IMG/VR virus record: IMGVR_UViG_3300046467_000823
Coordinates: 1 to 42,198 of that record
From: a virus
DNA: 42,198 bases
Direction: 5' to 3' (one strand)
Below are positions 11,329 through 41,596 of this stretch, piece by piece. The notes under the pieces were generated by a model, which was not told the origin of the DNA, searched no databases, and saw only the letters and a list, made by a program, of their open reading frames with translations. Positions within the stretch are counted from its first letter, which is position 1; each line of letters starts with the position of its first letter. Made by a program: the position numbers and the translations under genes.

Positions 11329-11891
11329 TAGTAGATCTTGTCCACTTGGTCATGGCCAGGATGATCTGCTATTATTTCACAATTATTAAATCCAAGTTCT
11401 TTCATATAGGCATCCATTTCTTTTACATCAGGAAGAAGAGGTTGTCTGGGATCTTTATACAAATTTACTTCATTTAAAACATACGTTGCTCTTTTAAATA
11501 TTTCTGGTGCACCTTTCATTATCATAATCTCTGCACCTTGTACATCCTGTTTAATAAAATCATATCTTCGCGATCCCACAAGCGATTCTAATGTTTCCAT
11601 ATCCCTTTCCTCTGAATATGGGGTTTGATCAAATATACTTGCTCCTTTAGTATACCCTACCTTATTAAAATACATAGTAACTTTTTTATTTTTATTGCCT
11701 AGCACTGCAATATGTACTTCGTCAGCACATTTTTTTAAATTTGTCTTGTGTTTGGGTCCTGCTTCAATACAAGTATAATGTGCTTTAGGCCAAAACTCTT
11801 TACAATTTTTTGTCCAAAAACCATTCCAAGCACCAATGTCTAATACAGTATTGGGTTTAAAATCTAATTTTTTTAAATATTCATACATCAT
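11325..11891 (-). CDS. FkbM-family SAM-dependent methyltransferase (copy 1 of the minus-strand operon)
   Basis: The Rossmann SAM-binding motif VLDIGAWNGFWT is at residues 16-27. The FkbM C-terminal signature YDFIKQDVQGAEIMIMKGA carries the conserved D-x-x-G-x-E. At 188 aa it is short, nearly the bare catalytic domain. FkbM enzymes usually O-methylate sugars or small hydroxylated compounds. It is the last gene of a five-gene overlapping minus-strand operon, sharing ATGA with the gene upstream. It is divergent in sequence from the two FkbM copies beside it, so they are not recent duplicates. Confidence 0.88.
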   Translation of the reverse strand: MMYEYLKKLDFKPNTVLDIGAWNGFWTKNCKEFWPKAHYTCIEAGPKHKTNLKKCADEVHIAVLGNKNKKVTMYFNKVGYTKGASIFDQTPYSEERDMETLESLVGSRRYDFIKQDVQGAEIMIMKGAPEIFKRATYVLNEVNLYKDPRQPLLPDVKEMDAYMKELGFNNCEIIADHPGHDQVDKIYY

Positions 11892-12526
11892 GATTTAAAA
11901 TATATAACGTCAGGCCAAATTTTAATTAACATTTCAAAACCTAATGTAGGCAAGTATTTTTCAATCTCTATATTACTACTACCGTATCTTTTTGTATTAT
12001 TATTCAATTCTATCATTATATATTGAACATTTTTAATTGTTTCTGTTGCTCCTTTAAGTACTTCCATTTCAAACCCTTCAACATCAATTTTTATTAAATC
12101 AATGTTGTCTAAGTTTAAAGAGTCTATTGTACAAATTTTTGTATCACCTTTTTCTTGTATTACTCTTGTATTTTGAGTAGCAATTTCTTCAGTTAATTTT
12201 ACAAATCCTTCTTCGTTTCCTATTGCACAATTATACAAACTAACATTACTAAAAGGTGCAAGATTTTTTTCTAAACAAGCAAAGTGCGTTTTATTTGGTT
12301 CATAACAAAAAATATTTTCTGCGTATTTTTGCATAGCTAAACTCCATGTGCCGCACCAAGCACCTATATCTAACACCGTTTTAAATTTTATATTATTAAC
12401 CTTACAATGTATTAAAAGACGTTTTAAACATTTATCCTGCATATATGGATATTCTGAGTCTCTCCATTGTTCTATTTGAGCATCCTCCGATGGTAACCAA
12501 AGGTTATTAATTTTTTCTATTTTCAT
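11888..12526 (-). CDS. FkbM-family methyltransferase (copy 2)
   Basis: SAM motif VLDIGAWCGTWSL is at residues 51-63. The second signature IKIDVEGFEMEVLKGA is near residue 145. The motif YIMIELNNN matches the strand after the active site. It is 212 aa with a 50-residue N-terminal extension (PSEDAQIEQWRDSEYPYMQ) that could contact substrate. It overlaps copy 3 by 20 bases and copy 1 by 4, so all three should be translated from one mRNA. Likely role: O-methylation of a glycan residue. The substrate is not deducible. Confidence 0.9.
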   Translation of the reverse strand: MKIEKINNLWLPSEDAQIEQWRDSEYPYMQDKCLKRLLIHCKVNNIKFKTVLDIGAWCGTWSLAMQKYAENIFCYEPNKTHFACLEKNLAPFSNVSLYNCAIGNEEGFVKLTEEIATQNTRVIQEKGDTKICTIDSLNLDNIDLIKIDVEGFEMEVLKGATETIKNVQYIMIELNNNTKRYGSSNIEIEKYLPTLGFEMLIKIWPDVIYFKS

Positions 12527-13220
12527 TTGTGAAGATATAATTAAATTCTTGTTCGTTTCTTATATGTTTTGATTCTAATGTTAATCCTAAATCAATTAAT
12601 TTTGAAACATATTGTTCGTGTTTGTGATTTATTTCTATAAGAGCACTTTTGCACTTTTGCAATGATGCTAATGATCCTTTTATTACCTTATCTTCAAATC
12701 CGTCTACATCAATTTTAATGTAGTTGGGTTGCGGTATTATTTTTCTGCCTACTAAAAAATCTAAATGCATTTCTGTACAACCATGATAATATTCTCCACG
12801 GTGTCCTACTTTGTTTTCTGCTACACCTTCGTGCATATTTTTAACATTAATAACACTTAAATTAATTTGATTGCTTAATGCAACACAGAACGCCTGGCAT
12901 CTATTAGCTAAATTATTCAAGTTTATACTGTCTAATAAATTTTTATAGCTGGCGGCGTGTGGTTCAAATGCATATACTATATTCTCTTTTACAACTGCAG
13001 AATATAAAGTGTATATTCCAATATTTGCACCTATGTCTAAAAATACACTATCTTTTTCAAAACTATTAATCCATTTTATTGTTTCCGGCTCTTTGCTTAA
13101 CATCCTATCCATTCTATTTTTAATGTAAGTTTTTTGTCCTTTGTTATTAGCAAATATAATTTTTTTACCATTAACAGGAAACGAAAATGAGTCTACTCCG
13201 TAGTGTTTTAACTTTGGCAT
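12507..13220 (-). CDS. FkbM-family methyltransferase (copy 3)
   Basis: SAM motif VFLDIGANIGIYTLYSA begins at residue 59. The FkbM signature YIKIDVDGFEDKVIKGS is near residues 167-183, followed by ALIEINHKHEQYVSKL. This is the most canonical of the three tandem copies (237 aa). Its N-terminus contains FSFPVNGKKIIFANNKGQ, the beta-hairpin often preceding this domain. The start codon overlaps the preceding gene's stop by one base. Three separate FkbM enzymes in a row suggest several methylation sites on one glycan. Confidence 0.9.
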   Translation of the reverse strand: MPKLKHYGVDSFSFPVNGKKIIFANNKGQKTYIKNRMDRMLSKEPETIKWINSFEKDSVFLDIGANIGIYTLYSAVVKENIVYAFEPHAASYKNLLDSINLNNLANRCQAFCVALSNQINLSVINVKNMHEGVAENKVGHRGEYYHGCTEMHLDFLVGRKIIPQPNYIKIDVDGFEDKVIKGSLASLQKCKSALIEINHKHEQYVSKLIDLGLTLESKHIRNEQEFNYIFTNENRKN

Positions 13221-14035
13221 TATAGTATTCCTTTATCCATTAATATTTCTATTGCTGTTCCTTTTGCAAATTCTTCAGGCGTAAATTGTTGATATGCTAA
13301 ACTATATAACCATGGTTCCGGAGCCTTATACAAAGGTTCTTCAATATCTGCCAAATGTAAATTACCCATTTCCTTAGCAAAACTTTTATCATGACAAAAC
13401 ACAGGTTTACCCATACACACTGCTTCAATGGCGCTAATTGAACAACTTGTTACACACGCCCAAGCATCGTCTAGATGTTCAGAAAGAGGAACTATTGCTT
13501 CACTTGGTCCTGACGTGCCTCTGCCACGTGGTTTGTGTCTTACTACAATTGGTCTATCTGTATATCTTTTAATTTGTTCTATTGTTTCTTCTAACCAATT
13601 AGGTCTATCTAAATAATTGTGTATACCATTTGAACTTGGACAAACTAATATGTGGGTTCCTTTGTCGATAGTTGGTGCTTTTACTGTAATATTAAACTTG
13701 TCAAATCTATCAGACTTACAATCTTTTATAAAAGGAACGTGTATTTTATTTTTACAAATACGCCAATAATGATTATCTGGTTTTAAATTATTATTGTCAA
13801 ATCTTCCAAAGTACGGTGTATCAGTAAACCAAAACTGATGCTTACGTGCTTCTAACTTTTTAACTAACTCTAAATTATTATTAACAAACCCCCAAAACAT
13901 AGAGTTTGCCAAAGGCTCTGTTACAACTCTGTTGTCTAAAATTTTAACTGGGTCAGGCCAAGATGTTTCAATACCATTGAATATTTCCCAAGCCTTGCTG
14001 TTTTTATTATTAACTGGTGCGTAAATTGTTAGCAT
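13220..14035 (-). CDS. Capsule-polysaccharide-transferase-like protein (KpsC/KpsS-like family), copy A
   Basis: This 271-aa cytosolic protein has a Rossmann-like C-terminal half. HILVCPSSNGIHNYL begins the second domain. Then come RPIVVRHKPRGRG (a nucleotide/donor-binding basic loop), AWACVTSCSISAIEAVCMGKPVFC (the GT-B type donor-site helix with S-x-x-x-E) and the family tail WLYSLAYQQFTPEEFAKGTA. The same architecture is found in three other genes of this window (17583-18398, 18388-19368, 22038-22910). The family resemblance is to capsule/Kdo transferases of the KpsC/KpsS kind. This is a fold-level call and the sugar is unknown. Confidence 0.7.
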   Translation of the reverse strand: MLTIYAPVNNKNSKAWEIFNGIETSWPDPVKILDNRVVTEPLANSMFWGFVNNNLELVKKLEARKHQFWFTDTPYFGRFDNNNLKPDNHYWRICKNKIHVPFIKDCKSDRFDKFNITVKAPTIDKGTHILVCPSSNGIHNYLDRPNWLEETIEQIKRYTDRPIVVRHKPRGRGTSGPSEAIVPLSEHLDDAWACVTSCSISAIEAVCMGKPVFCHDKSFAKEMGNLHLADIEEPLYKAPEPWLYSLAYQQFTPEEFAKGTAIEILMDKGIL

Positions 14036-14699
14036 CTATAAATTCTTTTAATTGGTTTGCCCAGTCTTTATGACCTTCTTCGTTTGGGTGCGGATCACCT
14101 TCTTTACATTGTTGATTGTTAGCAACTGTATAATCTAAATGACTAGTCTCGGATTTAAAAAATCTTTTCTTGTCTATCTTATCAAACAATAGTTGCACAT
14201 CTGGATTAGTAATTTTAGCATCTGCTAAAGTATTGTAAAACACATACGGATATCCTTTATTTTGAAAGTAGTCTTGCAAGTCTAACAATCCTAATATTGA
14301 TTCTACCTGTGTCATTTGATCTAAGTCTGCTCCTAGACCAAAAAGATATTTTATAAAATTTGTTGTGTGTTTGTTTCTGTTTGGATCCCAAGTTTTCCAA
14401 CTAGTTTTCATTGTAGGAAATTTGTGTGCTTTATATCCGTCATTAGTTGGGTAATCAAATCTATTACCACCACTAGATCCTATTAAGAAAAAACATTTTT
14501 TTGCTTGTTCAGGAAATTTCTCACACCATACTCTTGTAGTCCACATTAATCTTTTTGATCCTCTACCACCGCCAGCAAGATTAACTTCTAGTTCTAAGTC
14601 CATTAATTTTGCCAGTTCTATACCACAATGTGTATTAACATTGTCTCTAGGCCTGTATGTTAAAAAAGAACAGCCATTAATGAATAGATTAGTCAGCAT
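14010..14699 (-). CDS. SGNH/GDSL-type hydrolase (putative esterase or O-acetyl transferase/esterase)
   Basis: The SGNH blocks are visible. Block I is FINGCSFL, with nucleophile Ser at residue 11. Block II Gly is in NLAGGGRGSKR, block III is in LIGSSGGNRFD, and block V is DPHPNEEGHKDWA with the catalytic Asp-x-x-His. At 229 aa there is no signal peptide, so it acts in the cytosol. SGNH enzymes in polysaccharide clusters remove or add acyl groups on sugars. It is the first gene of the minus-strand operon, directly below a sigma70-like promoter, and overlaps the next gene by 26 bases. Confidence 0.82.
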   Translation of the reverse strand: MLTNLFINGCSFLTYRPRDNVNTHCGIELAKLMDLELEVNLAGGGRGSKRLMWTTRVWCEKFPEQAKKCFFLIGSSGGNRFDYPTNDGYKAHKFPTMKTSWKTWDPNRNKHTTNFIKYLFGLGADLDQMTQVESILGLLDLQDYFQNKGYPYVFYNTLADAKITNPDVQLLFDKIDKKRFFKSETSHLDYTVANNQQCKEGDPHPNEEGHKDWANQLKEFIDANNLRTS

Positions 14700-16612: not shown

Positions 16613-17596
16613 ATGAAAAAAATTGCTTTTGTTACAGGGATGACCGGGCAAGACGGTCCTTATCTTGCAAAACATCTATTAGAAAACGACTACAAAGTTT
16701 ACGGATTAGTAAAAAGATACAGTAACCCTAATTTAAGTAACCTAGATTACTTGGGTATTGAAAAAGAAATAGAACTCATAACAGGTGACATTACCGACGA
16801 TGCTAATATGAATCACCTAATTAGAACTATCCGACCAAACGAATTTTATAATTTGGCCGCTCAAAGTTTTGTAGGTGCAAGTTGGGAACTGAATAAGCAA
16901 ACAACAGAAGTAAATGCTATTGGTGTTTTAAATATTTTAAATGCAATCATAGGTCATAATCCTACAACAAAATTTTATCAAGCAAGTACTAGTGAATTAT
17001 ACGGAAATGCAAATGTTAAAGGAGTTCAGGATGAGAACACACCATTTCATCCTCGTTCACCATACGGTGTTTCTAAATTATATGCTTATTGGATGACCGT
17101 TAACTTTAGGGAAAGTTATAGTTTACACGCTTCTAATGGTATATTGTTTAATCATGAATCACCAATTAGGGGAAAAGAATTTGTTACTAGAAAAATAACC
17201 GACGGTGTTGCAAAAATTAAATTAGGACTTGCTAAAAAACTTACATTAGGTAACCTTGATGCAAAAAGAGATTGGGGATTTGCTGGAGACTTTGTTGAAG
17301 CTATGTACACAATGGTGCAACAAAAAGAACCTAATGACTATGTAATTTGTACAGGGGTACAACATTCTATCAAAGAATTATTAACTCATGCATTTGAAAT
17401 TGCAGGTATCACAGATTGGGAACAATACATAGAAACTGATCCACGTTTTAAACGGCCGGCTGAAGTACACGCATTACACGGTTCGTATACTAAAGCTAAA
17501 AAAGTATTGAATTGGGAGCCTAAAACATCATTTAAAGACATGGTTGCCTTAATGGTTAATGAGGATATCAAACGACTGTCTAATGATTTACGTTAG
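16613..17596 (+). CDS. gmd: GDP-mannose 4,6-dehydratase-like NAD(P)-dependent sugar-nucleotide dehydratase
   Basis: This is an extended short-chain dehydrogenase. The dinucleotide motif is GMTGQDG (residues 9-15), the Gmd variant of GxxGxxG. Catalytic residues fit Gmd: T126 and E128 in STSELYG, Y151 and K155 in SPYGVSK. Substrate blocks NHESPIRGKEFVTRKI and GNLDAKRDWGFAGDFVEAM are nearly textbook Gmd. At 327 aa it is slightly shorter than most (about 345-370). Start: AGAGGA at 16601-16606, 6 bases upstream. It makes a 4-keto-6-deoxy nucleotide sugar. The substrate could be GDP-mannose or, as in DmhA enzymes, a GDP-heptose. It sits amid glycan genes on the plus strand. Confidence 0.93.
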   Translation: MKKIAFVTGMTGQDGPYLAKHLLENDYKVYGLVKRYSNPNLSNLDYLGIEKEIELITGDITDDANMNHLIRTIRPNEFYNLAAQSFVGASWELNKQTTEVNAIGVLNILNAIIGHNPTTKFYQASTSELYGNANVKGVQDENTPFHPRSPYGVSKLYAYWMTVNFRESYSLHASNGILFNHESPIRGKEFVTRKITDGVAKIKLGLAKKLTLGNLDAKRDWGFAGDFVEAMYTMVQQKEPNDYVICTGVQHSIKELLTHAFEIAGITDWEQYIETDPRFKRPAEVHALHGSYTKAKKVLNWEPKTSFKDMVALMVNEDIKRLSNDLR

Positions 17597-18398
17597 TTCT
17601 ACTAATAGAAAACTTACTGAAAAATATGTTGATTGGGCCGTTAAAGGATTGCCTGGATCAATAAAGTTATCACCTACAGAAATTATTAATAAAAATGATT
17701 GCAACAAAGTTGTGCTGTTTGGAATTCTCCGAGGCACTAATCTTATCTACAAATGGGCAGAAAAAAATAAAATTGATTTTTATTATATGGATAGACCGTA
17801 TTGGGGAGAAACTAGAAACAATCCTTACTACATTAAAATTGTAAAAAATAATCATTTAAAAAATTGGCAAGAGAATAGACCCGACGATCGTTTTAAGAAA
17901 TCGTTTCCGTGGCCTATTAAACCTTGGAAAAAAGATGGTAAAAATATAGTTGTTTGTCCACCATCAAATGCTATGCAAGAATTTTTTGGAGTACATAACT
18001 GGTTAGACAAAACATTAGAAACATTAAAAGCAAATACTAATCGACCAATTATAGTAAAAAACAAAGGGTACAATCCAATAATAGGATACAATGAGGACGG
18101 AGGAATGAAAGTAATAGGTAAAGACGACGCCCCGCCTAGTGGACCTATTGATTGGGAGAATGCTTATGCTATTGTTACATATAATTCAAATATATCTTTA
18201 GAAGCTACTACTAAAGGAATTCCTTGTTTTACTGATCCTCACAATGCCTGTGCACCAATATCAGAAACAAATTTCTCAAAAATAGAAACACCTAAGTACG
18301 TTGATCGAGAACCATTATACTACTCAATGGCATACGGACAATTTACAGCAGAAGAAATAAGCAACGGATATGCATGGAAGATACTAAATGAAAGTTGA
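17583..18398 (+). CDS. Capsule-polysaccharide-transferase-like protein (KpsC/KpsS-like family), copy B
   Basis: I prefer ATG 17583 (271 aa), since MIYVSSTNRK then aligns with the start of copy A (MLTIYAPVNNK). An upstream ATG at 17559 would add 8 residues inside gmd. Shared blocks: KNIVVCPPSNAMQEFFG, RPIIVKNKGYNP, AYAIVTYNSNISLEATTKGIPCF, and the tail YYSMAYGQFTAEEISNGYA. These parallel copy A block by block, including the overall length. Copy B overlaps gmd by 14 bases and copy C by 11. It is likely a cytosolic transferase working on the gmd product or an acceptor glycan. Confidence 0.7.
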   Translation: MIYVSSTNRKLTEKYVDWAVKGLPGSIKLSPTEIINKNDCNKVVLFGILRGTNLIYKWAEKNKIDFYYMDRPYWGETRNNPYYIKIVKNNHLKNWQENRPDDRFKKSFPWPIKPWKKDGKNIVVCPPSNAMQEFFGVHNWLDKTLETLKANTNRPIIVKNKGYNPIIGYNEDGGMKVIGKDDAPPSGPIDWENAYAIVTYNSNISLEATTKGIPCFTDPHNACAPISETNFSKIETPKYVDREPLYYSMAYGQFTAEEISNGYAWKILNES

Positions 18399-19368
18399 AA
18401 TATTTAGAAGAACAGTAAAAGATAGACGAAGAGGAGCCAGTTACGATCTTCTTCAGTACATGGCGGAAGGCATACGAGCTTGCCATGATGAACCCATTAT
18501 GGTTAATGAAGCAAAAACAGGCGAATCGACAGCTAACGAAATGGAGCCTACTGCACCTATAGGATGTATGTTTGGGTATGGTGGAGACAAACAAATGCAC
18601 CATACTAAAGGTAGAAGAAGAGATCTTGTAGAACGTGCAAAAAAGAAAGGAATCTATATCATAACATTTGACGGAGGTCTTCTTTCAAGTTTTGGTAACG
18701 TACACGGTCCAAAACATCATTGGAGGGTGTCTTTATACTCGCCAATGAATAATGGAAATTTTTTATCCGATGGTAGTCCTGCAGACAGGTGGGAAGGCAT
18801 GAAAGCTAGATGGAATATTAAATCAGATCCATGGAGAAAATCTAATCCCAACGATCCAATATTATTTGTATTACAACCTAAAGACAACTGGAGCATGAAC
18901 GAACTAGATCCAATTGATTGGTTTATGAATGTTTATAAAAAACTTAGACCACTTACAACTAGAAAGTTTATTGTACGTCCACATCCAAATCATGTAGTAG
19001 CAATAGAAAACCGTAAAGGGGAGTTTCCAGATGATGTTGAAGTGCATATAGGACAAAAATATTTTCAAGGTGATGAGAAAAAGTACTATAGATTTCATTT
19101 TCAAGAGGCGATAACTACTTGTCATGCTGTTGTTACTCACAATTCTACTGCCTCTACTGATTCCTGCGTCCGTGGCATCCCTACCTTTTGTACATCAAAT
19201 CTTGCTATTTGTTGGCCGGTTGCAAACACTGATCTTTTAAAAATAGAATCTCCTATATATCCAGATAGAACACAGTGGTTAAACGACCTAGGATATAAAT
19301 TATGGAGCGAAAAAGAAATTAAAGACGGTACAGTATTCAAACGTTTTAAAGAGAAACTAGGATTATAA
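18388..19368 (+). CDS. Capsule-polysaccharide-transferase-like protein (KpsC/KpsS-like family), copy C
   Basis: This is the longest member in the window (326 aa). The N-terminus is basic (FRRTVKDRRRGASYDLLQYM), followed by IGCMFGYGG. The C-terminal domain has KFIVRPHPNHVV, AVVTHNSTASTDSCVRGIPTFC and IYPDRTQWLNDLGYKLWSEKEIKDG, matching the donor-site elements of copies A, B and D. The R-P-H-P motif is also present in copy D. Its TAA shares a base with the ATG of the amidotransferase gene, so the two proteins should be made together. Confidence 0.7.
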   Translation: MKVEIFRRTVKDRRRGASYDLLQYMAEGIRACHDEPIMVNEAKTGESTANEMEPTAPIGCMFGYGGDKQMHHTKGRRRDLVERAKKKGIYIITFDGGLLSSFGNVHGPKHHWRVSLYSPMNNGNFLSDGSPADRWEGMKARWNIKSDPWRKSNPNDPILFVLQPKDNWSMNELDPIDWFMNVYKKLRPLTTRKFIVRPHPNHVVAIENRKGEFPDDVEVHIGQKYFQGDEKKYYRFHFQEAITTCHAVVTHNSTASTDSCVRGIPTFCTSNLAICWPVANTDLLKIESPIYPDRTQWLNDLGYKLWSEKEIKDGTVFKRFKEKLGL

Positions 19369-21116
19369 TGTGTGGTATATACGGTATAACCGAAAACAAT
19401 CCAACATTTATAAAAGAGTTTATTAATATTTGTAAGCATAGAGGACCAGACGGCTCAAGCAGTTGGTACAACGACCACATCACATTAGGACACAATCTAT
19501 TAAGCATAATGGGGGAACCAGACAGTGCAACACAGCCATGGACAACGCCTAAAGGAAATAAGCTAGTTTACAACGGTGAGATATTCAACTACTACAACCT
19601 TAAAGAAAAATACAAAGACTTCAAAGACACAACTGGGTGTGATACCGAACTACTTGCTTGGGGGTTAGATTTGTTTGGGTTACAATTTATAAACGAAATA
19701 GATTCTATGCACGGATTTGCATACTACGAGGCAAACAAGAATACAGTAACACTGAGTAGAGATCATGCTGGTATAAAACCTCTGTACTATGCAGAAATTA
19801 AAGAAGGATTAGTTTTTGGTTCTGAAATAAAAGGAATGTTAGACAAAGTTCCGGGTAGTAGGAAAATGGATAATCTTGCAGTCAGTTTTATGGCAAGAAC
19901 TGGTATTAATGCTTTACGTAATACATTCTTTACTGGAATTAAAAAATTATTGGCCGGAGAAACAATAGTGTACGACATAGCTAATAAAACAATTATACAA
20001 AATCATAGAGTACACATTAAACCAACAAGTAATAAAAAATTTAATGCAGATGAATTTAGAGCAAAGGTACACAAAACAGTAGATATGTGTTCTATTGGTA
20101 GACGAAAAATTGGTGTATTTTTAAGTGGTGGACTTGATTCTAGTATGATTGCTTATGAATTAAAACAAATTAAAGGTGAAGCTAATACATTTACAAATAG
20201 AATGGAACCAAATGTACAAGCCGATGAGGATTATAATAGTGACGCCAATTGTGCTAGAATAATTGCACAGCAAAATAATTTCAATCATAAAGAAGTTATA
20301 ACAACTCCTGAAACATTTATAGACAGTTGGGATGACAGCATATACTACATGGAACAACCTGTATATAATCCTAGTATGTCAATGTATTGTTGTACTAATA
20401 AATTTTTAGCACAAGACAGCATAATAGTTACAATAGCAGGAGATATGGGAGACGAAATACTTGCTGGGTATCCAAAGTACTGGAAGATGAAAAACCCACA
20501 GTGGCTACAGAAACAAATAGGAAAATCAAAAATAGAAAGTTGGGACGATGTTTTAAAATTATGGATAAAGAGAATAAAACGTCCATTAAAGTTAACAGAC
20601 AATCCAGTTAGTGATGATGTACTACTAACAGAATTTCGTAAATGTTATTCGGGTGAGTTATGGAATCCTGATGACCCAATTGGATCACACATGGCCTTAG
20701 ACTGTGTTGCACAAGTTCCTGAAGAGATGTTTAGTAGAAATGACAAGTACGGAATGGCGTATAGCATGGAAGGACGTTTTCCATTAGCAACTAAAACTTT
20801 TATGCAATACTGTATGAGTATGCATACAGATCTAAAATTAGGTCCTAATAAAAACGATACTAAAATTTTTATAAAAAAAGCATACTTAGGAAAATTGCCA
20901 AACGAAATTATTAACAAACAAAAAACTGGTTGGACAGTTCCAGTAGGACATTGGTTAACTACAAGCACTAGTGCAAAATTAAATAAATTTTATCTAGACA
21001 GAACACGCGACAACTCTAAGTTAAATGTAATTAAAGCCAGTCAGAAAGCCGGAAAGGCATTAATACCTGCTTGGATTGTTAATGATTGGATTAAAAAATA
21101 CAACATGACCGTCTAG
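19368..21116 (+). CDS. Glutamine-dependent asparagine-synthetase-like amidotransferase
   Basis: The N-terminal Ntn-hydrolase domain begins MCGIYGI, with Cys2 as the glutaminase nucleophile after Met removal, followed by HRGPDGSS and VYNGEIFNYY. The C-terminal ATP-pyrophosphatase synthetase domain has the PPi loop FLSGGLDSSM near residue 250 and AGDMGDEILAGY. At 582 aa it is full length for AsnB. Free asparagine synthesis is possible. However, homologues inside O-antigen and capsule clusters amidate sugar carboxylates, and this gene lies between capsule-type transferases. Its substrate may therefore be a uronic acid. It starts on the stop codon of copy C. Confidence 0.92.
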   Translation: MCGIYGITENNPTFIKEFINICKHRGPDGSSSWYNDHITLGHNLLSIMGEPDSATQPWTTPKGNKLVYNGEIFNYYNLKEKYKDFKDTTGCDTELLAWGLDLFGLQFINEIDSMHGFAYYEANKNTVTLSRDHAGIKPLYYAEIKEGLVFGSEIKGMLDKVPGSRKMDNLAVSFMARTGINALRNTFFTGIKKLLAGETIVYDIANKTIIQNHRVHIKPTSNKKFNADEFRAKVHKTVDMCSIGRRKIGVFLSGGLDSSMIAYELKQIKGEANTFTNRMEPNVQADEDYNSDANCARIIAQQNNFNHKEVITTPETFIDSWDDSIYYMEQPVYNPSMSMYCCTNKFLAQDSIIVTIAGDMGDEILAGYPKYWKMKNPQWLQKQIGKSKIESWDDVLKLWIKRIKRPLKLTDNPVSDDVLLTEFRKCYSGELWNPDDPIGSHMALDCVAQVPEEMFSRNDKYGMAYSMEGRFPLATKTFMQYCMSMHTDLKLGPNKNDTKIFIKKAYLGKLPNEIINKQKTGWTVPVGHWLTTSTSAKLNKFYLDRTRDNSKLNVIKASQKAGKALIPAWIVNDWIKKYNMTV

Positions 21117-31945: not shown

Positions 31946-33407
31946 TTATAACGAACAACAATCGCAGGCTAAGAACTATTCATTTGATGTACAGAAATTG
32001 TATATTGAAATGTTATTAGCAGATGCTGAATCATTCGCTAGGGCACATAACATATTCAAACCCGAAGCATTTGATCGTAAGTTGCAACCTATTGCAAAAT
32101 TTATTAAAGATTACATGGAAGAATACAAAGTGATGCCAGAGGTTGAACAAGTTAATGCATCGCACGATATCAAACTGAAAGAAGCAAAGGATCTTGACCC
32201 GGCACACTTTGACTGGTTATTAGATGAGTTTGAAACGTTTTCTAGACACAAAGCACTTGAACGTGCAATACTATCATCAGCTGATCTTTTAGAGAAAGGA
32301 GACTATGCTCCAGTTGAGGACATGGTTAAAGAGGCAGTGAACGTAGGACTTACACGTGATCTAGGTACAGATTATTTTGAAGATCCAAAAGGTAGACTAG
32401 AGTTTTTAAAGAACTCCAATGGGCAAGTCAGCACAGGTTGGCCAACTATTGATAAGAAACTATTCGGTGGATTCAACAGAGGAGAACTAAACATCTTTGC
32501 AGGAGGTTCAGGAGCAGGTAAAAGTTTATTCTTACAGAATCTTGCAGTAAATTGGGCAACCTCTGGGTTGAACGTTTGTTATATATCTTTTGAATTGTCA
32601 GAGGCATTAACGGCAATGAGATTAGATGCTATGATGACTAACATTCCAACTAGAAAAGTTTTTCCTGAAATAGATAATGTTGAAATGAAAGTTAAACTGT
32701 TAAGAAAAAAATCAGGTAACTTACAAATAAAATACTTGCCAAGTGGTAGTAATGTGTTAGACGTAAAAACATATATTAAAGAATTAGAGCTAAAAAATAA
32801 AAAGAAAATAGATTGTATATTAGTTGACTATCTGGATCTTATGATGCCGAAGAGTAAAAGAATATCGCCAGCAGACTTGTTTATTAAAGACAAGTATGTG
32901 TCAGAAGAATTAAGAAATTTAGTTGTTGAAAAACAATGTGTACTAGCAACAGCATCACAGTTGAACAGAGCAAGTGTTGAAGAAATAGAGTTTGATCACT
33001 CTCATATCTCAGGCGGACTATCGAAAATACAAACAGCAGATAACGTGATTGGTATTTTTACAAGTAGAGCAATGAAAGAACGTGGAAGATATCAAATACA
33101 ATTTATGAAGACTAGATCATCTAGTGGTGTTGGACAGAAAGTGGATTTAGAATTTAATGTAGACAGTTTGAGAATTAGCAGTCTAGACGAGGAAGAATCA
33201 CAAAGCTACAACCAAACAGGAAAGAACAAGATATATGATTCTTTAAAACAAACTTCTAAAGTAACTAGTGATTCACCAAAAGATGCAACTCCAAAAATCC
33301 CAGATCCACGTAAAGGAGATAATATGGGCGTTAAAGTAAAAGCAACTGTTGAAGGTGGAAAACTTAGACAACTGTTAAACGAATTGCACTCAGACGAGGA
33401 ACAGTAG
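31938..33407 (+). CDS. 41: Replicative DNA helicase, gp41-like (DnaB family)
   Basis: This hexameric 5'-3' helicase moves on the lagging strand. The N-terminal domain (1-160) binds the primase. The RecA-like motor has Walker A AGGSGAGKS (near 188-196), LNVCYISFELSEALT, Walker B CILVDYLDLM, and ASQLNRASVEEIEFDHSH followed by SGGLSKIQTADNVIG with the sensor residues. The C-terminus (from about 420) is polar and low-complexity. At 489 aa it matches T4 gp41 (475 aa). Its stop codon TAG overlaps the GTG start of the next gene by one base. Confidence 0.96.
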   Translation: MADYNEQQSQAKNYSFDVQKLYIEMLLADAESFARAHNIFKPEAFDRKLQPIAKFIKDYMEEYKVMPEVEQVNASHDIKLKEAKDLDPAHFDWLLDEFETFSRHKALERAILSSADLLEKGDYAPVEDMVKEAVNVGLTRDLGTDYFEDPKGRLEFLKNSNGQVSTGWPTIDKKLFGGFNRGELNIFAGGSGAGKSLFLQNLAVNWATSGLNVCYISFELSEALTAMRLDAMMTNIPTRKVFPEIDNVEMKVKLLRKKSGNLQIKYLPSGSNVLDVKTYIKELELKNKKKIDCILVDYLDLMMPKSKRISPADLFIKDKYVSEELRNLVVEKQCVLATASQLNRASVEEIEFDHSHISGGLSKIQTADNVIGIFTSRAMKERGRYQIQFMKTRSSSGVGQKVDLEFNVDSLRISSLDEEESQSYNQTGKNKIYDSLKQTSKVTSDSPKDATPKIPDPRKGDNMGVKVKATVEGGKLRQLLNELHSDEEQ

Positions 33408-34123
33408 TGAAAAAGTGTATTGTTCAGTACTGGATCCCTAGTATTGAATATAGTGAACCTGATTACAATAAAATTTTAAAAGACGAACAATCCGGCCTTG
33501 CACTTCTTAGTGCAAAAAGTTTTCAAGCGTATGCAGACAAATATGGCTATGACTTTATTAGAATACAAAAAAAGAAACTAGGTTTTAGACATCCAACATT
33601 TGAAAGATTTGATTTATGGTTAGACGATGCTTGGTGGGAAAAGTACGATGAGATTCTGTACGTGGACAGTGACGTATTTGCTATGCCTACTGCTCCAGAT
33701 ATATTTGCACAATATCCTGCACAAGGAACATTAAAAGTTTGTGTACACCCCGGTTTCCAATTAGCTACAGAACAAGAACAAATAGACCATATCTACTCTG
33801 GACTTCTAAAAGAATGTACTATACAACAAGTAACACAAAATGGTTTCCAAGCTGGTGTTTTTATTATAACCAAAGAAGCAAGAGAACTAATGAAACCTTA
33901 CATAGCAAAATACAAGGAATTAAACGACCATGACGGACATATATTATTATGGGCTACTATAAAAAGTGGTGTACCATTAACACGGATGACCGAACTTTAT
34001 AATTTTAAGAATGCATTTATGAAGAATAAACCATCAGTACACTTCTTCCATGCCGCGGGGCATAAAAAACACAATTTACAGTTACGGATTTTATCTTTTC
34101 TCCGGGACAACGGAATTAAATAA
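33407..34123 (+). CDS. GT-A glycosyltransferase, paralogue of the gene at 15805-16542
   Basis: It starts at GTG 33407, overlapping the helicase stop (TAGTG). The motif is LYVDSDVFA (D87-x-D89), preceded by HPTFERFDLWLDDAW and followed by PDIFAQYPA, GFQAGVFIITK and HILLWATIKSGVP. The paralogue at 15805 on the opposite strand shares all these blocks, including PDIFAQY. At 238 aa it is soluble. It opens the second sugar island directly behind replication genes. Confidence 0.87.
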   Translation: MKKCIVQYWIPSIEYSEPDYNKILKDEQSGLALLSAKSFQAYADKYGYDFIRIQKKKLGFRHPTFERFDLWLDDAWWEKYDEILYVDSDVFAMPTAPDIFAQYPAQGTLKVCVHPGFQLATEQEQIDHIYSGLLKECTIQQVTQNGFQAGVFIITKEARELMKPYIAKYKELNDHDGHILLWATIKSGVPLTRMTELYNFKNAFMKNKPSVHFFHAAGHKKHNLQLRILSFLRDNGIK

Positions 34124-34132
34124 GCGTATATT

Positions 34133-34576
34133 ATGATCCTTATAGCACACAGAGGCAACACTGCCGGCATCAATCCTGAACGTGAAAATACTGTTGCATA
34201 CATCAACGAAGCACTGGAAAAAGGATACCATTGCGAAATAGATATATGTAAATGGGATAACGACCTAGGAAAATTTTATCTAGGACACGACGAGCCAACA
34301 GAAGTAGTTGATCGAGAGTGGTTGAAAGATAACAACTTATGGTGCCATGCTAAAAGTTATAATGCATTAGAAGCCATGATGGCAATGGGAATACATTGTT
34401 TCTTTCACAAAGGAGATGACTACACGCTAACCTCAAATGGTTGGATATGGGCATATCCGGGTATGCCAGGCGGTGTAAAAACAATCGCAGTGCATCCAGA
34501 AAAACTTAATCCTGAAGAAGTAAAAAAATTTGCAGGTATATGCGGAGACAACATAGAAAAATATAAAAATGATTAA
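34133..34576 (+). CDS. Short GDPD-like (glycerophosphodiester phosphodiesterase family) protein
   Basis: GDPD hallmarks are present: LIAHRGN (H6, R7), ENT (19-21 region), EIDI (E35, D37) and YLGHDEPT (H52, D53), i.e. the metal and general acid/base residues. At 147 aa it is much shorter than most GDPDs (about 240 aa). The later barrel strands are reduced to LWCHAK, CFFHKGDD and WIWAYPG. Such mini-GDPD proteins occur next to sugar-nucleotide genes and may act on a sugar phosphodiester or phosphoglycerol substituent. It overlaps the HAD gene by 8 bases. Confidence 0.75.
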   Translation: MILIAHRGNTAGINPERENTVAYINEALEKGYHCEIDICKWDNDLGKFYLGHDEPTEVVDREWLKDNNLWCHAKSYNALEAMMAMGIHCFFHKGDDYTLTSNGWIWAYPGMPGGVKTIAVHPEKLNPEEVKKFAGICGDNIEKYKND

Positions 34577-35105
34577 ACTTATAGTACTAGACGTTGATGG
34601 TATTCTTACAGATGGCAAAAAATATTACAATCGTGATGGTGATGTTGTAATGAAAACGTTTTGTGATAAAGATTGGACAGCAATAAAAAGATTTCGTGCT
34701 ATGGACATACCAGTTGTATTTTTAACAGGTGATCCTTTTAACGAATCTATTGCACGTAATAGAAATATAGATGTTATTGTGAATAGAAAAGATGGCAAAC
34801 ATACAGACAAATCTGAGTTTATAAATGAATTGGCCGAAAAACACAGAATAACGCTTGGCCAAATCGCTTACGCTGGAGATGACATATTTGATATTGAAAT
34901 AATGAAAAAAATTAAATGGAGTTTTTGTCCAATGAACTCTCCTTTAATTGTACAAAATTATGCAGATGTGATAGATGCTAATAGTGGTGAAAATTTTGTA
35001 GTTGCACTTTTTGAATTACTTGAAGATTATAAATTGATTCCAAAAGAAGATTTTGACGAACATCTAAAAAAAGTTTATGCACTAGACGAAAAGGAAAAAT
35101 TTTAA
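34569..35105 (+). CDS. HAD phosphatase of the KdsC/GmhB kind
   Basis: Motif I is IVLDVDGILTDG (D8, D10), with KdsC-style GKKYYNRDGDVVMKTFCDKDW following. Motif II is VVFLTGD, the conserved Lys is near KHTDKSEF, and motif IV is AYAGDDIFD. At 178 aa with no cap it is the size of KdsC (Kdo-8-phosphate phosphatase) and of GmhB-type enzymes that dephosphorylate heptose bisphosphate. It is translated between the GDPD-like gene (8-base overlap) and the kinase (TAATG overlap), so it likely acts in one pathway with them. Confidence 0.87.
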   Translation: MIKLIVLDVDGILTDGKKYYNRDGDVVMKTFCDKDWTAIKRFRAMDIPVVFLTGDPFNESIARNRNIDVIVNRKDGKHTDKSEFINELAEKHRITLGQIAYAGDDIFDIEIMKKIKWSFCPMNSPLIVQNYADVIDANSGENFVVALFELLEDYKLIPKEDFDEHLKKVYALDEKEKF

Positions 35106-35782
35106 TGCACGATATTACTCTATACGGACACATGACAGTTGACAGAATATTTGATGGCTTTGAAGAACGTCAAACATTAGGTGCTATGGCTAATATGTGG
35201 AGAACATTTAAACAAATTGCTCCTGAATTAGATATTGGTTTATGTCCTACATCAATTGGTGAAGCAATGGTGTATATAGATAGAGATTCCAGCACAAGAT
35301 ATTCAAACTTTGTACCTGATATTAAAACAAACAAACCTATTATACAACAATCAAAAATATCACACGCACTTTATATTAACAAACTATTAGATGTAAGTTG
35401 GTTACCAAACTTAACTGGAAAAATATCTGCAGATGTGTGTGCGGGTAAAAAAGTAGATACAAATCTACTACAATATGTAGATTATTTTTTTATTGCTGAT
35501 GAAGATGCGTATGGTGATTTATCAACAATGTGTAAAGATACAAAAGGCTATGTAATACTACATACAAACAAAAGCAGTGTTGTATCTGATGGAAAAACAG
35601 AAACTTCATACAAAATAAACGACTCGTTGTTTGTTGAAAAAAGTAACGTGCTTGGAGCAGGCGATATGTTTGCTAGTAGTTTTTTGTACGGTCTAAACAA
35701 AAAAGATCCTATAGATCAAATACAAAAATATGCACATGAAATTACAAGTAAACTAATTACAAGTGCTAATGAAAAAATATAA
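35105..35782 (+). CDS. Short PfkB-family sugar kinase-like protein
   Basis: The PfkB signature NVLGAGDMFASSFLYGL is near residues 180-196. It supplies the catalytic Asp and the anion hole G-A-G-D. The start TLYGHMTVDRIF resembles the first strand of ribokinases. At 225 aa it is shorter than usual (about 300), with the lid and substrate loops (residues 30-90) trimmed, so activity should be checked. In HldE the PfkB domain phosphorylates heptose-7-phosphate at C1. Overlap with both neighbours places it in the same operon as the HAD phosphatase and nucleotidyltransferase. Confidence 0.8.
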   Translation: MHDITLYGHMTVDRIFDGFEERQTLGAMANMWRTFKQIAPELDIGLCPTSIGEAMVYIDRDSSTRYSNFVPDIKTNKPIIQQSKISHALYINKLLDVSWLPNLTGKISADVCAGKKVDTNLLQYVDYFFIADEDAYGDLSTMCKDTKGYVILHTNKSSVVSDGKTETSYKINDSLFVEKSNVLGAGDMFASSFLYGLNKKDPIDQIQKYAHEITSKLITSANEKI

Positions 35783-36923
35783 TTTACTTCTACCAATTGC
35801 TGGCAAGGCCCAAAGATTTCTTGACGCTGGGTACACAATGCCAAAGCCTTTGATACTTGCAAGAAACAAACACGTAATCGATTGGGCACTAGAATCTGTA
35901 GACTTATTAGAGTGCAATTTAATATTCATGGTAAGAGTTGATCACATATACAATTTCAGCATTGATAAAATATTAAAACAAAAGTTTGGTGACGACATAA
36001 CAATTATTAAAATAAACAAAGTAACACGCGGTGCTTTAGAAACTTGTACGTTGGCAAGAGAATATGTTGATAACGATTTGCCTTTAATAATTTACACTCC
36101 GGATGTTTATTTTGGTCCAAAGTTTTATCCAAATACTATCAACAAAGATGCAGATGGATTCTTATTAACTTTTACTGCTAATAGTCCGGATCATAGTTAT
36201 TCTGAATACGGAGAAGATGGCGTAGTAACTAATGTTGTTGAGAAAGAAGTAATATCAAAAGAAGCAAACGTAGGACTGTATTATTTCCGGACAGGCAAAT
36301 TATTTTTAAAATATGCAGACGAAGTTATTAATAGCAATATGCTTGTTAAAAATGAATTTTATATTGCACCTATGTACAATTTAATGATAAGAGATGGATT
36401 AAAAATTACGGCGGCCAATACTGAAAAGATGCACGTACTAGGTACGCCCCATCAATTTGAATTTTTTGTTAAGCGAGTTATAACAAGATTTGGGGATAAA
36501 CCTATTGCTATTGCTAGTGACCATTCAGGTTTTGAAATAAAAGAATTATGTAAACAAATATTTGGTGAACTTACTTTACCTTATATTGATGTTGGAACAT
36601 ACACAGATAAGGCTTGTGACTATCCGGATTATGTTTTACAGGTTACTAAACTAATTCAATCAAATGAATGTTCTCATGGTATAAGTTTTTGTCGTTCAGG
36701 GCAAGGAGCAAATATTACTGCTAATAAAGTAAAAGGTATAATTTCTGCGTTGTGTTTTGATGAATACACAGCCGAGTATTCTATAAAACATAATTGCTGT
36801 AATCACTTTTCAATTCCTTCAAAATACGTAAATAAAAATGACCTAAAAAGAATTATTAAGAGAATGCTTGAAACTTCTTTTGATGGTGGTAGACATTTTA
36901 CAAGACTTTTTAAACTTTTATAA
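35769..36923 (+). CDS. Fusion: sugar nucleotidyltransferase + RpiB-type sugar-phosphate isomerase
   Basis: I choose ATG 35769 (384 aa), and an in-frame GTG at 35763 would add two residues. Residues 1-240 are an NTP-transferase domain: LLPIAGKAQRF (nucleotide loop), MPKPLI, IYTPDVYFGP (metal Asp) and FLLTFTANSPDHSYSE. Residues 243-352 are RpiB/LacAB-like: IAIASDHSGFEIKELC, YIDVGTYTDKACDYPDY, SFCRSGQGANITANKVKGI and CFDEYTAEYSIKHNCCNHF. The catalytic Cys is kept (FCRSGQG) though CGTG is changed to CRSG. A protein joining isomerisation and nucleotidyl activation suggests one NDP-sugar pathway. Confidence 0.87.
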   Translation: MKKYNLLLPIAGKAQRFLDAGYTMPKPLILARNKHVIDWALESVDLLECNLIFMVRVDHIYNFSIDKILKQKFGDDITIIKINKVTRGALETCTLAREYVDNDLPLIIYTPDVYFGPKFYPNTINKDADGFLLTFTANSPDHSYSEYGEDGVVTNVVEKEVISKEANVGLYYFRTGKLFLKYADEVINSNMLVKNEFYIAPMYNLMIRDGLKITAANTEKMHVLGTPHQFEFFVKRVITRFGDKPIAIASDHSGFEIKELCKQIFGELTLPYIDVGTYTDKACDYPDYVLQVTKLIQSNECSHGISFCRSGQGANITANKVKGIISALCFDEYTAEYSIKHNCCNHFSIPSKYVNKNDLKRIIKRMLETSFDGGRHFTRLFKLL

Positions 36924-36924
36924 A

Positions 36925-37557
36925 ATGCTTATTCATAACAATAAACCGCAATTTATATTTGTTGCGGTACCTAAAACTGGTACAACAACAATACAAAATT
37001 TTATGAGGGACAATCATGTGTTTCCAGAACTTGCTACAAAAAAATGCAAATGGCTTATTGGAGATTATCATTGTAGCATAGAAGAGATATACAAAAAATA
37101 TAAGATTAATGATACAAAAAATTATTTTAAATTTGCATTCCATCGAAACCCGTGGGATAGAATGGTTTCCTTTTGGCATGACTACACAACAGACCGTTTA
37201 CATCTTACTTGGTCAAAAGATTTACTAGACTACAAGAACTTTGAAACATTTGTACTAGAGTTCCAAAACAGTAAATGGCGCTATCACAAAAACTTCAAAC
37301 CAACTGTTGAATATACACACATCAACGGTAAACAAGAGGTTGATAAAATAGGAATCTATGAGAACTTTATAGACGATATAAAGTATTGTTTTGCAAAAAT
37401 TAATCTGCCATATGATAAGTTTTCACATACAAAAAAACTTAGGAGAGCACCACGTGAGAAAAATTACAAGACATATTATAACAATGAAAAAATAATTCAA
37501 GCAGTTGCAGACGCATTTGCCGATGACATAAAATTATTTGGAGATAAATTTGACTAA
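36925..37557 (+). CDS. Sulfotransferase-like protein (PAPS-dependent)
   Basis: The start at ATG 36925, right after the previous TAA, gives 210 aa. A longer version from 36868 would overlap the fusion gene. The 5'-phosphosulfate loop is VAVPKTGTTTIQNF (residues 14-26). The 3'-phosphate motif is FAFHRNPWDRMVSFWHDY near 70-87. The rest has the family helix pattern ending in AFADDIKLFGD. It resembles sulfotransferase family 2-type carbohydrate enzymes. It would sulfate a sugar hydroxyl if PAPS is available in the cell. No PAPS synthesis gene is in the window. Confidence 0.87.
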   Translation: MLIHNNKPQFIFVAVPKTGTTTIQNFMRDNHVFPELATKKCKWLIGDYHCSIEEIYKKYKINDTKNYFKFAFHRNPWDRMVSFWHDYTTDRLHLTWSKDLLDYKNFETFVLEFQNSKWRYHKNFKPTVEYTHINGKQEVDKIGIYENFIDDIKYCFAKINLPYDKFSHTKKLRRAPREKNYKTYYNNEKIIQAVADAFADDIKLFGDKFD

Positions 37558-38314: not shown

Positions 38315-39036
38315 AAATAGCAGTTTGTATAAGTGGAATATCAAGCAGGATACCTGAATACGAAAAAGTTATAGACTTGCAAAGAAAAGTGTTCGGCAAG
38401 TACGATTTCTTTTTTCAACAATGGGAAGGGTATCCAGAACCAAATGTACCAAATTGTGAATTCAATCCAGAACCAAAATGGGATTACCATTGTATACTTG
38501 AAGCAAAGGTAAAACCAGACTGCAACATTTATAGAAGATATACACAACCGGGTGGTAAAATAGAACGTAAAGGATTGGCAAAACAATTTACGTATTCGGC
38601 AAATCAAATTATATCACACGCACATCTAGTAGATAGTTTACCAAAAGAGTACACGCATATTATTAAAACAAGATTTGATACATTAGTATCAACAAAAGTA
38701 AACTTTGAACCTTATATAGAAATGCTATTAGACGGATGGAATATAGGATTTTACCAAGGCGGAAAAGATAACCTAACTCCTAAACACAAACTTGTAGAAT
38801 ATGATCATACAGGACCAAGATGTAAATGGAGATTGTTTGATCATTTATTATTTCACCCTCGTGATAGACTAAAGAATGTTTTTAAATTAAAACAAGAACA
38901 AAAGTTATTAGGTGCAGAGTGGGGTTGGTATCAGTTGCTTATTGATCAGTGGGGCGATTTAAAATATAAAAATGTTGCTGGTGGCGAATCGTTATACAGG
39001 TGTACAAGACATCCATTACAATGGGATCAGTTCTAA
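38311..39036 (+). CDS. Putative glycosyltransferase-like protein (241 aa)
   Basis: Start ATG 38311 shares ATGA with the previous stop. An earlier in-frame start at 38230 lies inside the upstream gene. The sequence has KIAVCISGISSRIPEYEKVI, YDFFFQQWEGYPEP, THIIKTRFDTLVSTKVNFEP (the same K-x-R-x-D pattern as the gene before it), RLFDHLLFHPRD and AEWGWYQLLIDQWG. The gene before it probably belongs to the same superfamily. It ends in a TAATG overlap with the FkbM gene. Activity is inferred, not shown by a catalytic motif. Confidence 0.55.
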   Translation: MKIAVCISGISSRIPEYEKVIDLQRKVFGKYDFFFQQWEGYPEPNVPNCEFNPEPKWDYHCILEAKVKPDCNIYRRYTQPGGKIERKGLAKQFTYSANQIISHAHLVDSLPKEYTHIIKTRFDTLVSTKVNFEPYIEMLLDGWNIGFYQGGKDNLTPKHKLVEYDHTGPRCKWRLFDHLLFHPRDRLKNVFKLKQEQKLLGAEWGWYQLLIDQWGDLKYKNVAGGESLYRCTRHPLQWDQF

Positions 39037-39752
39037 TGAAAACATACGATTACTATGGATGGAAAGTTTCAGCTGATGATCCAGGACCTAATACTCTAAA
39101 GGAAAGAGGTATAGATATAACGTTAGAGGGAGAGCAAGATATCAAAAAAATTAGCGACTTACTTACTAACAAAAGAACAGTTGTTGAGGCTGGAGTTTGT
39201 TATGGATTCGCAACGCCTGTGTTGAGTAAACATTTTAATCATGTACATACATTTGATTTTCCAAATGATATATTTGATTGTTTTAAAGTTAACATGGAAC
39301 GACTTAAAATTGAAAACATAACCATACACTCTTATGGATTAGGAGAAAAAGAATTGGACGTAAAACTCGCAGACAGGTTCCAACGGAAAAAATTTGTGCG
39401 AGGGTCATTAAACACTAGCGTTGTGGATAACTCAACAATGTTGAGAGACGCTGATAAGCCATACGTGAAGGAAAAGACATATCAAGTTAAACCGCTTGAC
39501 CACTTGAATCTAATTGATGTTGACCTCATTATGATAGACACAGAAGGATATGAACTGCTAGTTCTCAAAGGAGCAACACAAACAATACAAAAATATTCTC
39601 CTGTGCTTGTAATAGAATTTTCTTTAAAGAAGATGCTTTCATCAAAATATGGTTACAATTACAAGCATTTGCACGACTACCTAACCAGCATAGGGTACAT
39701 ACACAAGAGGAACCTCAATAAAGTCGATAGAGTATATGTGCGTAAAGCGTAA
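39036..39752 (+). CDS. FkbM-family methyltransferase (fourth in the window)
   Basis: The SAM motif is TVVEAGVCYGFATPVL (residues 48-63), with E-x-G in place of the usual D-x-G. The FkbM signature is DLIMIDTEGYELLVLKGA near 170-187, followed by LVIEFSLKKMLSS. At 238 aa it is complete. The start overlaps the previous stop by one base. Its last codons (GTG CGT AAA GCG TAA) hold the first two copies of a GCGTAA repeat that continues into the downstream spacer. Possible target: a glycan made by the second island. Confidence 0.88.
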   Translation: MKTYDYYGWKVSADDPGPNTLKERGIDITLEGEQDIKKISDLLTNKRTVVEAGVCYGFATPVLSKHFNHVHTFDFPNDIFDCFKVNMERLKIENITIHSYGLGEKELDVKLADRFQRKKFVRGSLNTSVVDNSTMLRDADKPYVKEKTYQVKPLDHLNLIDVDLIMIDTEGYELLVLKGATQTIQKYSPVLVIEFSLKKMLSSKYGYNYKHLHDYLTSIGYIHKRNLNKVDRVYVRKA

Positions 39753-40423: not shown

Positions 40424-40596
40424 TAAGCAACTATACAACAAGCCTGGCTACGCATTTATATAATCGTATAGATACGCACCAAAATAATCCTGTAATTAAA
40501 CGGACGCGACCAATGACTTGGCCGGCAGGTTTATATTTTACAGCAACAGATTTAACCAAGTGGATAGCAGAGCATGATAAATCAGAGACTATTTGA
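40420..40596 (+). CDS. Small hypothetical protein (58 aa)
   Basis: ATG 40420 overlaps the preceding TGA (ATGA), making 58 aa. An in-frame ATG at 40384 would lie in the DUF1289 gene. The sequence has TTSLATHLYNRIDTHQNNP and TWPAGLYFTATDLTKWIAEH, with no cysteine. It overlaps the radical SAM gene by 23 bases. Function is unknown. Confidence 0.55.
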   Translation: MISNYTTSLATHLYNRIDTHQNNPVIKRTRPMTWPAGLYFTATDLTKWIAEHDKSETI

Positions 40597-41596
40597 TCAT
40601 TATAACATAGACACAAAGAAGAATTTACAGATTAAAACTAGATGCCCTAGGCCATATGATACTATTCTAATAGATAAAAATGGCTCATGTTATGCTTGTG
40701 AATGCACATCGTGGCTTCCCCAAAGCATAGGAAACTTACAATTAAAAACGTTAGATGATATTATTAATTCCAAAATGCAACAACATTTACAAAGTTCTAT
40801 TACAGACGGGACCTATCGCTACTGCAACAACAAACAGTGTGCTTGGTTGCTTGACAAGAAGAACCCACCGGAATGGAAGGCACAAACTCCCGAAAGAAAG
40901 ATCAAGCATCTACGACTGGCCATAGACGACTCTTGTAACCTGAGATGTCCTAGTTGCAGGAAAGGGCTGATATTCCACAAAGAAGGCTCTGCATATAATA
41001 TTGGAATCAAACTCGCTGACCGCATCAATGAATGGTTGTATGATTACAAGTTTCCTTTGCAAGTCCACATAGGCTCGGACGGTGATCCATTTGCTTCACA
41101 CGTGTACAGGCATTTTATGGAACAGACACCGGAACGTAACAACATCAAATACAGCATACTAACCAACGCACTAATGTTTAAGGAGTTCCACACACGGGTA
41201 CCTTATGTCATCAATAACATGGAAGAACTAGGGGTCAGCATAGACGGAGCATCAAAAGAAACATATGAGAGATTAAGACTGGGCGGCAAGTGGGATAAAG
41301 TAAATGAGAACCTAGAGTGCATATCACAGTTGAAAAAGAAATATGGTTTTAGATTTATACTGCACTTTGTTGTACAGAAAGAGAATTACCATGAGATGGA
41401 AGATATAATCGAACTGGGGAAACAATATGGTGCTGACCGGGTGTGGCTCAATAGAATAACAGATTGGCAAACGTTCACAGACTTCAACTGGTACGATGTC
41501 GTTGCTCCCGCACACCCTGAACACAAACAGTTTCAGGAAGAGTTCGCAAGGATAAAAACAACTAACAACTTTGTGGAGTATGCTACACTAGAATGA
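40574..41596 (+). CDS. Radical SAM enzyme with an N-terminal SPASM-like domain (340 aa)
   Basis: The radical SAM cluster site is DSCNLRCPSC, with C121-x3-C125-x2-C128. A further cysteine-rich block precedes it: C24, C39, C42, C44, C84 and C89, in CPRPYDTILIDKNGSCYACE and YCNNKQCAWL. It looks like a SPASM auxiliary-cluster domain, including the phrase QSIGNLQLKTLDDIINS. SPASM normally follows the barrel, and here it comes first. Later LGVSIDGASKETYERLRLGG is the standard rSAM/SPASM strand. Substrates of such enzymes are peptides or sugars. ATGA overlap with the next radical SAM gene. Confidence 0.87.
   Translation: MINQRLFDHYNIDTKKNLQIKTRCPRPYDTILIDKNGSCYACECTSWLPQSIGNLQLKTLDDIINSKMQQHLQSSITDGTYRYCNNKQCAWLLDKKNPPEWKAQTPERKIKHLRLAIDDSCNLRCPSCRKGLIFHKEGSAYNIGIKLADRINEWLYDYKFPLQVHIGSDGDPFASHVYRHFMEQTPERNNIKYSILTNALMFKEFHTRVPYVINNMEELGVSIDGASKETYERLRLGGKWDKVNENLECISQLKKKYGFRFILHFVVQKENYHEMEDIIELGKQYGADRVWLNRITDWQTFTDFNWYDVVAPAHPEHKQFQEEFARIKTTNNFVEYATLE

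Follow-up and report, generated by a model that had tools for sequence, protein, structure and literature searches.

The genes at positions 34133-36923 of the window probably encode one pathway, in which a HAD phosphatase, a PfkB-fold kinase, a nucleotidyltransferase (NT) and an RpiB-type isomerase together yield a nucleotide-activated aldose that serves glycan synthesis during infection. The window is the whole 42,198 nt stretch of a 42 kb virus record (IMGVR_UViG_3300046467_000823). This proposal starts from the gene content, the folds and families of the proteins, the gene order, the catalytic residues and a change in the isomerase pocket. The cassette is best read as a virus-borne, previously undescribed pathway that starts from a ketose phosphate and ends in an NDP-aldose. 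It is heptose-like in its working but, as judged from sequence, is not a member of the heptose route by any of the tested families.

Layout of the locus

The first-pass annotation had described four overlapping genes for a GDPD-like protein, a HAD phosphatase, a PfkB kinase and an NT fused to an RpiB isomerase, and the ORFs, profiles and folds bear this out (Table 1). Successive ORFs overlap by 8, 1 and 20 bases, and the fourth (35763-36923) encodes a fusion protein of 386 aa with the NT at its N-terminus and the isomerase at its C-terminus. The ATG at 35769 is the likely start of the fusion, because this is where most relatives begin. Genes for DnaB and a primase are located directly upstream of the region, and the closest terminase relatives of this phage are found in PA5oct-like large phages (55%).

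Table 1. Features of the cassette and its immediate neighbours in the window
Feature	Position	Strand	Basis
mini-GDPD, 147 aa	34133..34576	+	profile vs PDB GDPDs, model, fold search, invariant residues
HAD phosphatase, KdsC/KDN-9-phosphatase type, 178 aa	34569..35105	+	profile matches, invariant residues
Short PfkB/ribokinase-fold kinase, 225 aa	35105..35782	+	profile and Foldseek
NT domain of the fusion, residues 1-242	35763..36488	+	PF00483, 4evw, RmlA-like positions
RpiB-type isomerase domain of the fusion, from residue 245	36495..36923	+	PF02502, catalytic residues
C310-R311, phage-specific Arg after the catalytic Cys	36690..36695	+	residue comparison
C345 after the catalytic His-Asn, phage-specific	36795..36797	+	residue comparison
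Glycosyltransferase-like neighbour, upstream in the same gene run	33407..34123	+	predicted function
Sulfotransferase (Sulfotransfer_2), downstream neighbour	36868..37557	+	profile match; family near 21/64 cassettes

The surrounding genes for glycosyltransferases, methyltransferases and a sulfotransferase support a glycan-directed pathway, and the glycosyltransferase-like protein is a probable user of a sugar donor. A minus-strand gene run at 11325-14699 contains three FkbM methyltransferases, and another FkbM gene is located downstream of the cassette (39000-39752); many methyl transfers are accordingly predicted for the glycan of this phage. Downstream of the glycan genes, a radical SAM protein with a SPASM-like N-terminal segment is encoded at 40574-41596, and relatives occupy the same place in several of the loci L001-L005.

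Protein families and catalytic residues

Catalytic positions, which we take from established knowledge of the families, were matched here by motif. The first-pass annotation had stated beforehand that active sites incompatible with activity would speak against its reading. Since the expected residues are invariant in each family, no active site speaks against activity at the sequence level, and the catalytic residues are intact in all four proteins.

The isomerase domain clearly belongs to the LacAB_rpiB family PF02502 (130.5 bits, cut-off 24.7); its score of 108.1 bits against the ribose-5-phosphate isomerase B equivalog TIGR01120 is below the cut-off of 138.65. For a residue comparison, 58 unique phage fusions were set against the best 56 bacterial RpiBs. 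Most of the phage sequences were obtained with the kinase as query, which imposes no selection on RpiB residues. The catalytic D253, H254, C310, H343, N344, R377 and R381 are invariant in all 58 phage domains. Position 311, directly after the catalytic Cys, is Arg in 58/58 phage sequences, compared to Gly in 55 and Ala in one of the 56 cellular RpiBs. Position 345, following His-Asn, is Cys in every phage domain and Asn or Asp in all 56 cellular RpiBs. Located beside the catalytic base, R311 and C345 suggest a different, probably unusual substrate. This signature can also be used to recognise the cassette in sequence data.

The NT domain exceeds the gathering cut-off of NTP_transferase PF00483 (22.9 versus 21.2 bits), and G14, R18, K28, D114, E160 and K161 are found in RmlA-like positions. 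Its closest solved structure is 4evw (E 3.5e-19). Matches to the RmlA/GlmU-like NCBIfam models reach about 1e-8, and no substrate-diagnostic match was found for the NT in this profile comparison, which counts against the one-pathway reading. An identity as HddC was rejected since neither HddC nor rfaE_dom_II was matched in NCBIfam.

The kinase belongs to the PfkB/ribokinase family according to its fold and C-terminal GAGD motif. The score against PfkB PF00294 (E 3e-5, 23.9 bits) is slightly under the gathering score of 25.8. Using its AlphaFold model (pLDDT 90), Foldseek revealed a ribokinase/PfkB fold with E-values down to 7e-12 and TM-scores to the query of 0.6-0.76, with a pyrophosphate-dependent inositol kinase, ribokinases and ketohexokinase as top folds; HldE was absent from the 50 best. 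In the motif N181-V-L-G-A-G-D187, G184, G186 and D187, which we take to be the catalytic base, are invariant, and A185 is present in more than 90% of the family. The short length of the kinase, its score below the Pfam gathering threshold and the PPi-dependent inositol kinase among its nearest folds also count against the one-pathway reading.

The HAD phosphatase had been described as being of the KdsC/GmhB kind. The KdsC part of this description holds; GmhB was rejected since its model was not matched at E<=0.1 in NCBIfam. The best matches are the KDN-9-phosphatase model (6.6e-26; 91.3 bits, cut-off 180) and the KdsC phosphatase TIGR01670 (5.6e-24; 84.8 bits, subfamily cut-off 106.95), and thus both are under their curated cut-offs. 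The usual HAD motif residues D8, D10, T53, K81, D104 and D105 are invariant in the family.

For the GDPD-like protein, no Pfam match was found, PF03009 (GDPD) included. Its family profile matches GDPD structures in the PDB (3i10, E 5e-4), and the predicted structure (pLDDT 96) has weak fold matches (E 0.02-0.08), the best being the C-terminal domain of phage K gp155, followed by GDPDs. The six expected catalytic positions H6, R7, E35, D37, H52 and K74 are invariant in the family. Taken together, the weak profile and fold matches suggest a shortened, GDPD-like TIM barrel of the glycerophosphodiesterase type.

Conservation across viruses

Three independent queries, namely the fusion, the kinase alone and the RpiB domain alone, all led to this block in IMG/VR. 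Once near-duplicates had been removed (fusions at 95% identity), 64 loci remained, 62 of them with at least 1.5 kb of upstream sequence. The order HAD-kinase-NT::RpiB was present in 60 of these 62 non-redundant viral loci, and in two only the HAD precedes the fusion. Because of this recurrence, the arrangement is not due to chance. Neither the order nor the fusion changes even where proteins share only about 40% identity, whereas the remaining neighbours differ from locus to locus. Of the 64 loci, 49 have a GDPD, 28 a cupin, 21 a sulfotransferase, seven a split transketolase and five an HddA-like kinase at most 4.5 kb from the fusion. Pairwise distances also correlate between the HAD, kinase, fusion and GDPD proteins (r 0.52-0.76), and none of 999 permutations gave values as high.

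The loci L290 and L293 have no PfkB gene near the fusion, which counts against the one-pathway reading. L290 encodes an APH-fold kinase in the same gene run (945-1751; PF01636, 26.3 bits, cut-off 23.2), as if the kinase step were required and its family changeable. In seven distinct loci, L286, L292 and L297 among them, a two-gene split transketolase (Transketolase_N and Transket_pyr) is located directly or one gene behind the fusion. Transketolases are makers of ketose phosphates.

Two isolates, the Synechococcus phages Bellamy and SynMITS9220M01, carry the cassette, with its products annotated as phosphatase or hypothetical proteins. No description of the cassette or of the NT-RpiB fusion was found in literature searches. 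These also yielded no assay of a cassette enzyme or a close relative with a known substrate, which counts against the one-pathway reading.

Search outside viruses

In a search of bacterial genomes confined to 395 from Bacteroidota and 398 from Bacillota, the NT::RpiB fusion is absent except for one viral contig. Among the matches listed for Bacteroidota and Bacillota, relatives of the NT and of RpiB are separate proteins. The sole full-length fusion match in contigs of bacterial genomes is PACT01000001.1 (L023), which carries phage-like genes. This contig, assigned to a Crocinitomicaceae MAG, appears to be a virus contig contaminating the MAG, as its length and kinase match are those of IMGVR_UViG_2825980227_000005. 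In the 395 Bacteroidota genomes, the kinase was found only on this contig, apart from one weak match to an ordinary PfkB. Plasmids gave no kinase match, and none of their records reaches 80% coverage of the fusion.

Bacterial relatives of the NT occur in the polysaccharide loci L171, L173 and L176, which combine a GDPD-like protein, a bPGM-type HAD and an NT of the phage family; only L171 and L173 also contain a small cupin and a second NT of this family. No description of this bacterial GDPD-HAD(bPGM)-NT-cupin module was found. In the cyanophages S-CAM9 and DSL-LC03, a bPGM-type HAD is fused to the NT and adjoins a GDPD. Together with the phage cassette, these arrangements are consistent with a scheme in which one type of NT receives its sugar-1-phosphate by either of two routes.

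Proposed pathway and alternative explanations

From these observations we infer the following order of steps. The RpiB-type domain would convert a ketose phosphate into an aldose phosphate, the PfkB-fold kinase would place a phosphate onto the anomeric carbon, the KdsC-type HAD would remove the terminal phosphate, and the NT domain would join the resulting sugar-1-phosphate and a nucleotide. Being fused, the first and the last enzyme may couple the beginning of the route to its end. Roles before or after these steps may fall to the mini-GDPD and, in other phages, to a small cupin. Support for a single pathway comes from the invariant catalytic residues, the fixed gene order, the co-divergence of the proteins, the exchanged kinase in L290, the seven split transketolases, the bacterial cassettes with relatives of the NT and the altered residues R311 and C345.

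If true, a complete sugar-activation pathway is present as one conserved block in many aquatic phages, and within the searched sets it is viral rather than bacterial. Phages use such sugars for remodelling of the host surface or decoration of the virion. A bolder proposal, which is put forward tentatively, is that aquatic phages carry a virus-maintained route to an NDP-sugar that their hosts do not make, in which the active site of the NT-fused RpiB-type isomerase has been re-tuned, and that this sugar may lie outside the NDP-sugar chemistry known so far. If host cells lack the sugar, it would mark the infected ones. Three of the cassette proteins are small and directly assayable.

An NDP-heptose or NDP-octose pathway, in which the RpiB domain isomerises sedoheptulose-7-phosphate or octulose-8-phosphate and non-homologous enzymes then follow the classical order, is considered unlikely. 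The classical heptose route proceeds via an isomerase, a 1-kinase, a 7-phosphatase and a guanosyltransferase (PMC10680097), and the same four-step logic can be recognised here. The split transketolase beside the fusion in seven of the 64 loci also favours a heptose or octose, and the altered RpiB pocket could accommodate a longer chain. The first-pass annotation had equated the enzymes of the cassette exactly with those of ADP/GDP-heptose synthesis. This is correct for the chemistry of the steps, with an isomerase, a PfkB kinase, a HAD phosphatase and an NT, but not for the families: comparison with NCBIfam at E<=0.1 gave no match to GmhA, RfaE/HldE, HddA, GmhB or HddC. The isomerase is RpiB-type (PF02502) and not a SIS-domain GmhA, and the kinase is a member of the PfkB superfamily outside HldE/RfaE domain I and HddA. 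Two diverged relatives of the kinase match rfaE_dom_I at about 1e-3. Moreover, the known substrates of the RpiB family have four to six carbons.

The two isolates provide a further argument against the heptose reading, as both have separate heptose-like genes. About 2-12 kb downstream of the cassette, SynMITS9220M01 encodes HddA-like kinases (287 and 91 bits), epimerases, a GmhA-like (47 bits) and an HldE-II-like protein (59 bits). In Bellamy, HddA- and HddC-like genes are likewise present apart from the cassette. These genes are termed heptose-like only, because they are below strict equivalog cut-offs. Excerpts of the publication on SynMITS9220M01 report heptose-related genes, and the gene list in these excerpts does not contain this cassette (PMC7378029). 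One phage might have two routes leading to a single sugar, but that the routes lead to different sugars is more likely.

It had also been proposed that the Gmd-like protein encoded at 16613 could work with the cassette as DmhA does on GDP-heptose. This link proved weak. The gene is 18-19 kb away, and its product is closest to GDP-mannose 4,6-dehydratases (TIGR01472, 409 versus 415 bits; 1RPN). Near the cassette in other loci, 4,6-dehydratases are mixed, comprising Gmd-like proteins and a true dTDP-glucose 4,6-dehydratase, and a cassette-specific Gmd/DmhA link was rejected for this reason. Given its GDP-mannose type, its distance and the mixed neighbours elsewhere, no DmhA role is indicated. 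In the window, the stretch 16613-21116 encodes the Gmd-like dehydratase followed by two related uncharacterised proteins and an asparagine synthase (279 bits for TIGR01536, whose cut-off of 267 is exceeded), which suggests an amide-forming step in this glycan cluster.

A Lic-like route appears quite improbable. Here, the GDPD would act on a glycerophosphodiester and release an alcohol, which the kinase would phosphorylate and the NT would turn into a CDP-alcohol, with isomerase and HAD preparing or salvaging the substrate. The combination of GDPD, kinase and NTP_transferase-fold enzyme does resemble GlpQ-LicA-LicC, and one bacterial NT relative adjoins ORFs that, read from sequence, are LicD-like and CTP-transferase-like. 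However, this route leaves no clear job for the obligatory RpiB domain and the HAD, and the GDPD keeps less closely to the fusion than the members of the triad do, being present in 49/64 loci and often several genes off.

The HAD alone, with KDN-9-phosphatase and KdsC as its best matches, would suggest a Kdo/KDN-like ulosonic acid pathway. This is very improbable, as both curated cut-offs are missed, neither an ulosonic acid synthase nor a CMP transferase was recognised beside the cassette, and the NT belongs to the RmlA-like NTP_transferase family rather than to KdsB/NeuA. Equally hard to credit is that independent glycan-related genes were co-kept as mobile cargo, because order and fusion persist down to about 40% identity and the proteins co-diverge while neighbours vary, even though glycan clusters of large phages are mosaics and this very variation of neighbours would fit.

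Comparison with known systems

The single-pathway reading places the cassette closest in logic to ADP/GDP-heptose synthesis, with which it shares the order of reactions and a PfkB-superfamily kinase as in HldE. It differs in its RpiB-type instead of SIS-type isomerase, its KdsC-type HAD instead of GmhB, a kinase outside the HldE family and an NT that is neither HddC nor HldE-II and is fused to the isomerase; in two cyanophages it is found beside heptose-like genes. Among the cyanophages with LPS gene clusters (SynMITS9220M01, Bellamy and S-SM2), the first two carry the cassette.

For the individual proteins, the phage isomerase resembles the RpiB family PF02502 over its full length and in all catalytic and phosphate-binding residues. 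It is set apart by the Arg after the catalytic Cys, the Cys after His-Asn, the sub-equivalog score and the NT fusion. The NT has its nearest solved structure among the 4evw-type nucleoside-diphosphate-sugar pyrophosphorylases, of which 4evw itself has no RpiB fusion. The HAD is like the KdsC/KDN-9-phosphate phosphatases, its best-scoring family, in length and HAD motifs; it differs in its scores below the cut-offs and in its own conserved CDKDW and TGDP motifs. Finally, the bacterial GDPD-HAD(bPGM)-NT-cupin cassettes have the NT family and the GDPD-like and cupin partners in common with the phage cassette, whereas in L171, L173 and L176 a bPGM-type HAD takes the place of isomerase, kinase and KdsC-type HAD, and the NT is unfused.
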